Notes under the pieces: generated by a model
Databases searched by the model: none
The model's input: only the letters and a program-made list of their open reading frames with translations
What the model was told of the DNA's origin: nothing
DNA from: an uncultured Saprospiraceae bacterium
GTDB lineage: Bacteria; Bacteroidota; Bacteroidia; Chitinophagales; Saprospiraceae
Direction of reading: 5' to 3'
Assembly (NCBI GenBank): GCA_938045585.1
Contig: CALIAU010000020.1
Coordinates: forward strand, 122,767-186,766
DNA length: 64,000 nt
Shown: in pieces, positions 1,159 through 64,000 of the stretch
How the letters are laid out: each line of letters opens with the position of its first letter
Numbering within the stretch: position 1 is the first letter of the stretch
Translations under genes and position numbers: made by a program

Positions 1159-1260
1159 CGCGTGAGCTTGCCTGGAGGGTTTTAAGTCCGCTAGGACCAA
1201 GCGAGCAGCGCGCCCGGAAGGGAACGACCCAGCTCTTATAGAGCTGTGGGCACGCCCAAA
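1159..1260 (-). repeat. Dispersed structured intergenic repeat, copy A
   Basis: Reverse complement TTTGGGCGTGCCCACAGCTCTATAAGAGCTGGGTCGTTCCCTTCCGGGCGCGCTGCTCGCTTGGTCCTAGCGGACTTAAAACCCTCCAGGCAAGCTCACGCG; near-identical core at 33428 and 41784. Confidence 0.93.
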
Positions 1261-33269: not shown

Positions 33270-33427
33270 TTTATTATAATTTCTTTCACCTAATAAAAGG
33301 TGCTAAATAAACTTTCAGCATGCTTTACAATATCAACTATCCTTAATTTACACAAACGTTGCACCACTTCATCAGAAATATTTAAACTAAAATTTATAGC
33401 ATCTAATAGTAGGGGCAGAAAAGCGCC

Positions 33428-33532
33428 CGCGTGAGTTGCCTGCAGGGTTTTAGTCCGCAAGGACCAAGCGAACAGCGCGCCCGGAAGGGAGCGACCTAGT
33501 TTCTGAAACTCAGAAACTGGGGCACGCCCAAA
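33428..33532 (-). repeat. Dispersed structured intergenic repeat, copy B
   Basis: Reverse complement TTGGGCGTGCCCCAGTTTCTGAGTTTCAGAAACTAGGTCGCTCCCTTCCGGGCGCGCTGTTCGCTTGGTCCTTGCGGACTAAAACCCTGCAGGCAACTCACGCG. Confidence 0.93.
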
Positions 33533-33549
33533 TACATATTATTTTTTTC

Positions 33550-41783: not shown

Positions 41784-41881
41784 TTGGGCGTGCCCCAGCT
41801 ACTCCGTATCTGGGTCGGTCCCTTCCGGGCGCGCTGCTCGCTTGGTCCTAGCGGACTAAAACCCTCCAGGCACCTCACGCG
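41784..41881 (+). repeat. Dispersed structured intergenic repeat, copy C
   Basis: TTGGGCGTGCCCCAGCTACTCCGTATCTGGGTCGGTCCCTTCCGGGCGCGCTGCTCGCTTGGTCCTAGCGGACTAAAACCCTCCAGGCACCTCACGCG. Confidence 0.93.
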
Positions 41882-53241: not shown

Positions 53242-53267
53242 CCTGCCTGCGTGCGCAAGCAGGCAGG
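53242..53267. repeat. GCCTGCCTGC hairpin repeat
   Basis: CCTGCCTGCGTGCGCAAGCAGGCAGG; inverted repeat CCTGCCTGC/GCAGGCAGG. Confidence 0.85.
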
Positions 53268-62316: not shown

Positions 62317-62338
62317 ACCCCAAGTGACAAAAATTATC

Positions 62339-62373
62339 AAGGCTATTCGTGTAACGCGAGTAGCCTTTTTTTT
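62339..62373 (+). terminator. Rho-independent terminator (plus strand)
   Basis: AAGGCTATTCG...CGAGTAGCCTTTTTTTT. Confidence 0.85.
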
Positions 62374-62385
62374 ATTAAGAAAGTT

Positions 62386-62479
62386 TTGGGCGTGCCCTAC
62401 CTGTTTACACAGGCAGGTCGTGTCGTCCGCAGCTTGGTCCTTCGGACTCCCTACAGGGACTGCTACCACCACTCACGCG
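62386..62479 (+). repeat. Dispersed structured intergenic repeat, divergent copy D
   Basis: TTGGGCGTGCCCTACCTGTTTACACAGGCAGGTCG...GCTTGGTCCTTCGGACTCCCTACAGGGACTGCTACCACCACTCACGCG; ends and hairpins conserved, middle diverged. Confidence 0.75.
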
Positions 62480-62560
62480 TCGCAAATAGCCTTTGCTAAT
62501 TTGTTCGTTTTTCTATTGCGACCCTACGATTTATTAATGGATTTCTATTCTTCTCATGCA

Positions 62561-62595
62561 ATAAAAAAGGTCTCTAACGAAACCGCTAGAGACCC
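62561..62595 (-). terminator. Rho-independent terminator (minus strand)
   Basis: GGTCTCTA...TAGAGACC 8-bp stem followed on the minus strand by TTTTTT, downstream of 62623-64000. Confidence 0.85.
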
Positions 62596-62622
62596 TAAGA
62601 ATCCTTTTTGTTCTATATCAAT

Positions 62623-64000
62623 TTACTCAATCACTATCATTTTCTTTGTCGCAGTAAAATCTCCACTCTCTAACTGATAGTACATCACTCCTGATGTGCC
62701 TAACTGTCCTTTCGTCAACTCTATTACGTGAGACCCGCTTTCGTAGTCACCTGAAACAACTGTTAGTACTTTTCCTGTTACATCCATAACAGTTAAGGTA
62801 GCTTGACCAGCTTTTCCTAATGTGAATCCAATCTGCGTAGTTTCTCCAAATGGGTTTGGCTCATTCTGCGCAAGCGCAAACGCTGCAAGTTCTCCCTTGC
62901 CTCCTCGCATGCTTACTTCAGCCACCTCCAAGTGAGATCCTACATAGGCTTCTGCATCTGTTACTCCTGATACTAAGCTTAGCTCTGTTCCTCCCGCTAC
63001 TTCAAGAGTAAATAGAACGGTACCTTCAGCAAATGTATTTGCTTCTGTTCCTGAGAATGAAGTAGTAATTACTCCTCCTTTCAAGATTCCAAAGTTGCTA
63101 GCATCTACTTGTAATGCTCCTCTTCGCACGCCTTCAAGCATTCCGTTTAACTGCATTGTAAACTGGTAAGCATATACATCTGTAAAGTTCTCTCCTGCTC
63201 TTACTTCGATCAAGTTCTGACCTAAGGCCTCTACTTCGAAGCCTACTGTAGATCCGCTTCTTGTGTCTACATCCACATCGAGTAAGTTAGCTGTAACGCT
63301 TCCGTTTACATCTCCTATCTTAACGCCTACGAAATCCTCTTCCATCATGTCAGCCTCTAATCCTACAATATCTATTGCCTCAGTGAAAGGGAATGGATCC
63401 ATAGTCATTACTTGATTCGCTATTGGGAATCTCCAGCTATCATTCTGTGGTAACTCATCATAAATACCCAAGATTAATTTTCTTAGTTCTACGATATCTA
63501 TTCCACTTATACTTTCATCACTATTGATATCCGCTGCAATTAATTTGTACCCACTATCTAGGTTCTGTAGTTGTAAGATATGTCTCTGGATTAATACGAG
63601 ATCTAAAGTAGATACTCCGTTTAACCAGTCGCCTGTCTTATCTGCTGATACCTGATAGGTATTATAATGTAGGTTATCCATGAAGGCATAGTAACCATCT
63701 TCTACTGTATCATCAAATCTTGGATACTCTGGCTGTGTAGGACTCACCACTGTTACACCTACTCCTGCTACTGTCTCTCCTGATTCTGTTGCTATTGTTC
63801 CTGCTATATCAGACCTCGGAATAGCCACTCCTAAACATTGCTCTCCGTGAATGATTAGGGTTACCCAACAGAAATCTGTATTGAACTTCTCATCCCATAC
63901 ACTTACTCTGATATCATTCTCTCCACACCACTCTGTCCCTACGAACTTAGTTCCTGAAGATCCTGTTGCTGGATTCCATCTTTGTACTGGGAAACCATTC
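62623..64000 (-). CDS. Secreted protein with dockerin-like module and T9SS sorting domain, partial (5' end beyond window)
   Basis: NGVSTLDLVLIQRHILQLQNLDSGYKLIAADINSDESISGIDIVELRKLILGIY; C-terminal QNEPNPFGETTQIGFTLGKAGQATLTVMDVTGKVL...KKMIVIE. The reading frame stays open upstream of the track Met (63828): ...VWDEKFNTDFCWVTLIIHGEQCLGVAIPRSD. Confidence 0.93.
   Translation of the reverse strand, partial: NGFPVQRWNPATGSSGTKFVGTEWCGENDIRVSVWDEKFNTDFCWVTLIIHGEQCLGVAIPRSDIAGTIATESGETVAGVGVTVVSPTQPEYPRFDDTVEDGYYAFMDNLHYNTYQVSADKTGDWLNGVSTLDLVLIQRHILQLQNLDSGYKLIAADINSDESISGIDIVELRKLILGIYDELPQNDSWRFPIANQVMTMDPFPFTEAIDIVGLEADMMEEDFVGVKIGDVNGSVTANLLDVDVDTRSGSTVGFEVEALGQNLIEVRAGENFTDVYAYQFTMQLNGMLEGVRRGALQVDASNFGILKGGVITTSFSGTEANTFAEGTVLFTLEVAGGTELSLVSGVTDAEAYVGSHLEVAEVSMRGGKGELAAFALAQNEPNPFGETTQIGFTLGKAGQATLTVMDVTGKVLTVVSGDYESGSHVIELTKGQLGTSGVMYYQLESGDFTATKKMIVIE

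Follow-up and report, generated by a model that had tools for sequence, protein, structure and literature searches.

The window, which is the whole 64-kb stretch of DNA analyzed here, contains four copies of a short palindromic element, each with a variable hairpin (hairpin 1) near one end. The positions and covariance-model (CM) scores of the copies are as follows.

1160–1257, minus strand: element copy 1, GGGCG...CACGC, preceded by TTT at 1258–1260; CM match at 1157–1261, E 0.0072
1229–1250, minus strand: hypervariable hairpin 1 of copy 1, CCCACAGCTCTATAAGAGCTGG
33429–33529, minus strand: element copy 2, GGGCG...CACGC; CM match at 33426–33533, E 0.0072
33495–33522, minus strand: hairpin 1 of copy 2, CCCCAGTTTCTGAGTTTCAGAAACTAGG
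41786–41880, plus strand: element copy 3, GGGCG...CACGC; CM E 6.5e-6
41793–41814, plus strand: hairpin 1 of copy 3, CCCCAGCTACTCCGTATCTGGG
62388–62478, plus strand: element copy 4, second subtype with a GTCGTGTCGTCCGCAGC core; CM E 3.1e-7
62395–62417, plus strand: hairpin 1 of copy 4, CCCTACCTGTTTACACAGGCAGG

The sites and strands of the four copies are as the first-pass annotation had proposed. Copies 1–3 form one subtype and are 84–87% alike by BLAST. Copy 4 belongs to the other subtype, yet it is the best match to the family model among the four. All four have TTGGGCGTGCCC-hairpin-GGTCG...CTCACGCG in common. The copies had been described as intergenic and free of ORFs. The intergenic dispersal holds, whereas copy 4 overlaps a mechanical ORF of 117 amino acids (62324–62677), which is probably spurious. 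The surrounding genes are unrelated across about 60 loci, as had been noted for the window, and no neighbor gene recurs among them. No Rfam family reaches its threshold within the window.

The expectation of further copies is borne out by about 95 genome-wide. A two-gap end pattern is found at 12 sites in the source genome and a looser one at 19 sites, while the reversed patterns are found at none, so that chance does not explain the copies. A first strict pattern scan of the phylum gave only unrelated matches outside the source genome because the pattern was too narrow, and a covariance model corrected this. An exact-pattern scan of named genomes supplied family copies from many Bacteroidota, including Flavobacterium, Epilithonimonas, Aquimarina, Mangrovimonas, Segetibacter, Niabella, Ferruginibacter, Chitinophaga, Saprospiraceae, Tannerellaceae, Algoriphagus, and others. 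The covariance model R1, built from 28 such copies with none from the source genome, recovers the four copies of the window (E from 3e-7 to 0.007) and gives 95 matches at E ≤ 1 in the source genome. In the phylum sample, R1 has matches in 24 of 37 genomes from the same class, compared with 2 of 111 other genomes.

Outside the phylum, one copy occurs in a Fibrobacterales genome (L184, 71 bits). The remaining pattern matches beyond Bacteroidota mostly look like chance, and chance probably also accounts for those on a Pseudomonas (P. fragi) plasmid and an uncultured plasmid. On Bacteroides plasmids, the element takes a form with the ends GCGTT/AACGC, and in a search for empty sites, all well-covered Bacteroides plasmid records were found to carry it. 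Phages gave no BLAST match to the element, and three of six pattern matches on viral contigs fit the model. The densest cluster seen is in Bacteroidia bacterium SKYG108 (L154), where five model matches fall within one 8-kb stretch. Two inverted element pairs in the source genome (L250, C11:91660–92088, and L235, C9:11686–12186) are about 220–270 bp apart in a BIME-like arrangement, and the DNA between the paired elements is not common to both.

The element is about 70–165 nt long and folds as a three-way junction, in which hairpin 1 and a long arm branch from a closing stem (GCGTG/CACGC). The closing stem is followed by one unpaired C, hairpin 1 (CC...GG), TC, and then stem 2 (GGG C TA / TA T CCC), beyond which lie an internal loop with TCCGCT on both sides and a central hairpin. 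The TCCGCT segments are two direct copies flanking the central hairpin. In the subtype of the window, stem 2 is GNT/ANC and covaries as GGT/ACC, GTT/AAC, and GCT/AGC, with one defect in this stem in each of copies 1 and 2.

Several of these pairings had been anticipated by the first-pass annotation. The ends do pair as GCGTG/CACGC, and this closing stem covaries (GCATG/CATGC, GCGTT/AACGC, GCGTA/TACGC, GCGAG/CTCGC, and GTGTG/CACAC). The next stem in the window subtype is GNT/ANC instead of the local hairpins listed there, although GTCC/GGAC is retained. The suggested cloverleaf-like multibranch fold is a three-way junction and not generally a four-arm cloverleaf; some subtypes have an extra hairpin. 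In one copy of the source genome (L244, C11:46604–46705), the entire closing stem is GAGAT/ATCTC with the fold retained.

Covariation is strong and present in all four helices. In alignment A3, 95.3% of cells pair, and none of 500 shuffles reaches any of the measures; when the partners are slid, pairing falls to 30–58%. Both sides change in 16 of 20 pairs in alignment A4 (60 copies from three other genomes), a count reached by 0 of 500 shuffles, and in 19 of 20 pairs in the alignment of 56 source-genome copies, though both alignments were fitted to the model structure and the counts lean towards it accordingly.

Hairpin 1 is hypervariable: 50 copies in the source genome have 49 distinct hairpin 1 sequences, while their cores are up to 98% alike. 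For the 38 source-genome pairs whose cores are 93% or more alike, the median likeness of hairpin 1 is 57%, near the 50% of unrelated pairs. In the same 38 pairs, the least conserved 20-base stretch of the core still shows 90% likeness, and the closing-stem arm beyond hairpin 1 is unchanged. This bias is weaker in genome G126, and three related copies of G142 do not show it. Hairpin 1 also differs at sites orthologous between the source genome and a genome of the same genus (G396), and it is nearly unchanged between two Flavobacterium species at one orthologous site (L149/L168).

The arms of hairpin 1 nevertheless remain complementary. The outer mirror pairs comprise 376 Watson–Crick, 6 G.T, and 11 A.C pairs, compared with 206, 59, and 37, respectively, in shuffled sequences. 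A search for hairpin 1 sequences copied from the element's own flanks gave no signal. Hairpin 1 of copy 3 is the exact inverse of that in an otherwise near-identical copy (L003/L254), the cores being identical, and an exact hairpin inversion is the footprint expected of template switching (PMC8794818). Hairpin 1 may be rewritten by such hairpin-templated copying, which would keep its arms perfectly complementary during the turnover of its sequence.

Within a genome, the alignment of near-identical copies runs exactly from GGCGT to CACGC, and the flanks are unrelated, indicating that the element behaves as a discrete mobile unit. Copy 3 and two other copies in the source genome, for example, are 93–100% alike and lie at unrelated places with unrelated flanks. 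In the regions of G396 syntenic with copies 2 and 3, no element was found. The syntenic intergenic DNA of G396 does not align across the site, and no clean empty site with intact flanks was obtained. The left flank is TTT (73–83% T) and the right flank is a purine. T5 lies upstream of 87 of 218 copies, compared with 29 for A5, and T-runs are common on the left only. The element prefers sites 3′ of TTT. The left T and the right A show no covariation, and intrinsic terminators are not enriched as targets (4 versus 2 in the mirror control). Inspection of the flanks by eye gave no recurring duplication; the copy at 41786 has GGACTTGG on both sides. No half-element, orphan 5′ half, or gene-bearing version occurs in the DNA examined.

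The gaps that hold the element are biased in the orientation of the flanking genes. With genes called simply as the longest ORFs, convergent gaps are favored and divergent ones avoided (29 and 15 with the element versus 17 and 39 without; Fisher p 0.0006). In tandem gaps, the orientation of the element is random (27 with and 25 against the genes). Where two elements lie close together in other genomes, the genes between them are of the housekeeping kind, with no mobilizing gene. In a Flavobacteriales MAG (L135, 310–2517), two inverted copies bracket an ORF that resembles a P-loop ATPase (HerA/FtsK-like by eye), an arrangement that does not recur. A second palindromic repeat, CCTGCCTGC-N-GCAGGCAGG, is found in the window at 53242–53267 (C20:176008–176033) and has 60 copies in the genome versus 0 for the reversed pattern. 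About 15 of the approximately 48 sites listed for it fall within copies of the element, far above the element's share of the genome, as if the repeat inserted into, or served as, one element hairpin.

We consider it likely that the element is a non-autonomous mobile DNA repeat of Bacteroidota, similar to REP elements and MITEs, that acts in the form of a folded DNA single strand. The folded strand would be recognized by an enzyme supplied in trans, which would move the element with polarity beside T-tracts, probably while the DNA is single-stranded. Copies would then persist where they are harmless, mostly away from promoters. The surmise of the first-pass annotation, a family of structured repeats dispersed between the genes of Bacteroidetes and perhaps described before, is supported, the part already described being Flavo-1 (RF01705). 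A literature search by sequence fragments and repeat terms gave no paper on the repeat as such.

Flavo-1 is known as a computationally inferred RNA and putative sRNA (PMC2864571). The inner arms of relatives of the element match this family on the opposite strand, several of them above threshold: copies from Flavobacterium and some other copies score 58.7, 44.8, 58.1, and 46.2 bits against a gathering threshold of 42 bits. The source-genome copies tested, including all four in the window, give no match to RF01705 even at E ≤ 10. The family of Weinberg et al. 2010 (PMC2864571) shares with the element stem 2, the central hairpin, the conserved loops, and the occurrence in Bacteroidetes, on the reverse strand. 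The Rfam model differs in that it has neither the closing stem, nor hairpin 1, nor the TTT-side end, and in that it is filed as an sRNA. The element as delimited here is a new, larger, and strand-corrected version of the family partly known as Flavo-1.

The matches above the gathering score and the strong covariation would also be expected of a functional structured RNA, the Flavo-1 sRNA, transcribed from the opposite strand or from the strand described here, and some 5′ regions of F. psychrophilum overlap Flavo-1 matches (PMC9723704). We regard this explanation as unlikely. In the same study (PMC9723704), Flavo-1 matches show no preference for sense or antisense relative to transcripts, and many of them are not transcribed; both observations suit a DNA repeat. 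The random orientation of the element relative to genes, the large number of copies and their variation among related species, and the omission of the closing stem and hairpin 1 from the Rfam model also argue against an RNA.

The composition of the base pairs bears on the same question. Structured RNA normally tolerates many G.U pairs. In helices 1–3 of the three alignments (approximately 2900 cells), however, there are approximately 2860 Watson–Crick cells with 22 G.T and 33 A.C, so that G.U is nearly absent and no commoner than A.C. Template switching rather than selection on DNA structure could be the cause of this absence. One pair in helix 4 is conserved as T-G (45 of 60 copies in A4), which would suit an RNA and speak against the DNA reading, though it may be a bulge. 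Taken together, the evidence is more in keeping with a mobile DNA element than with an sRNA. More tentatively, and with the odds leaning slightly against so full a statement, we suggest that Flavo-1, which is listed as one of the more abundant sRNA families, is no RNA family and instead represents the inner arm of a mobile DNA element found phylum-wide, and that the first hairpin of this element is continually rewritten by hairpin copying, giving each copy its own perfectly paired tag.

As a mobile DNA repeat, the element resembles REP elements and REPtrons with TnpA-REP (RAYT) in being dispersed, intergenic, palindromic, and non-coding, in being probably moved in trans, and in having a conserved unpaired foot beside a stem. 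It differs in forming a three-way junction of about 70–165 nt instead of a hairpin of 20–40 nt, and in its foot, which is TTTGG instead of GTAG/CGTC, the conserved GTCG of the element being internal and not at the foot. Unlike in REPtrons (PMC6006769), no RAYT gene is bracketed by the element. With MITEs and elements derived from IS200-IS605, it shares a short gene-less mobile unit with defined ends and an oriented insertion beside a short target without evident duplication. Unlike them, it has no autonomous parent with the same ends in the DNA examined, and its 5-bp closing stem changes by compensation between copies. No IS or MITE with these ends, which had been considered as a possible match, was found.

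These resemblances invite a more specific explanation, in which the element is a REP-like partner mobilized by a Y1/HUH transposase, namely a RAYT, the TnpA-REP subclass 2.6 of Bacteroidetes, or an IS200-type enzyme. The folded-strand architecture, the insertion in one orientation 3′ of TTT with no evident duplication of the target, and the low-level dispersal through the genome are all reminiscent of REP and IS200 biology. Subclass 2.6 TnpA-REP genes, the best candidates from the literature, are bordered by "atypical secondary structures" of which further copies lie elsewhere in the genome (PMC6006769). Subclass-2.6-like genes occur in several element-bearing genomes, however, where the hairpins beside them are different ones and the element is absent within 1.5 kb. 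None of 30 Y1 loci in ten element-rich genomes is flanked by the element, one stray copy lying 1.3 kb away, and no Y1 gene is detectable in G408, which has 31 elements. The occurrence of RAYT genes does not follow that of the element (13/16 versus 33/45), and no transposase or recombinase gene is bracketed by the element in the DNA examined. For the genomes examined, we reject RAYT/IS200 as a partner in cis, and the Y1/HUH explanation as a whole appears quite improbable.

Some Y1 genes are flanked by palindromes of other kinds. Four loci (L064, L067, L056, and L061) carry subclass-2.6-like RAYT genes, each with a different flanking palindrome family of its own, and these palindromes may be unlisted REP types. 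At L028 in the source genome (C13:45506–45844), a Y1 transposase with the motif YIKEQEQHH (subclass 1.2 type) has repeated palindromes, TGCCCC..GGGGGCATG / TATAGACAGGGATATCATCCCTGTCTATA, on both sides. According to the literature, Y1 genes of subclass 1.2 are generally without terminal structures.

Enrichment between convergent genes and depletion between divergent ones, as seen for E. coli REP elements, could alternatively mean that the element is a domesticated cis element, such as a terminator, an mRNA 3′-end stabilizer, or a nucleoid-protein site, kept for its function at many loci. Avoidance of promoters alone would yield the same gap bias, however, and we find neither a fixed orientation, nor a common neighbor gene family, nor an association with terminator hairpins, which leaves a domesticated role with little probability. 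A SINE-like non-autonomous retroelement, whose opposite-strand RNA ending in ...GCCC-AAA would prime on T-tracts and be copied by a reverse transcriptase in trans, would account for the T-tract directly at one end only and for the polarity of insertion without covariation between the left T and the right A, but we see no link to a reverse transcriptase, no 5′ truncations, and no orphan 5′ halves in the DNA examined, and hold this origin to be highly improbable.

If the reading as a mobile DNA element is true, a widely used sRNA annotation, Flavo-1, would be corrected to a mobile DNA element with its full extent, strand, and fold, and a mobility system without a known enzyme would be exposed in one of the largest bacterial phyla. 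Hairpin 1 provides a natural record of turnover, with dozens of copies per genome that have near-identical cores and unrelated, perfectly paired hairpins. With this record, which includes one exact inversion, template-switch models of palindrome evolution (PMC8794818) can be put to a direct test.
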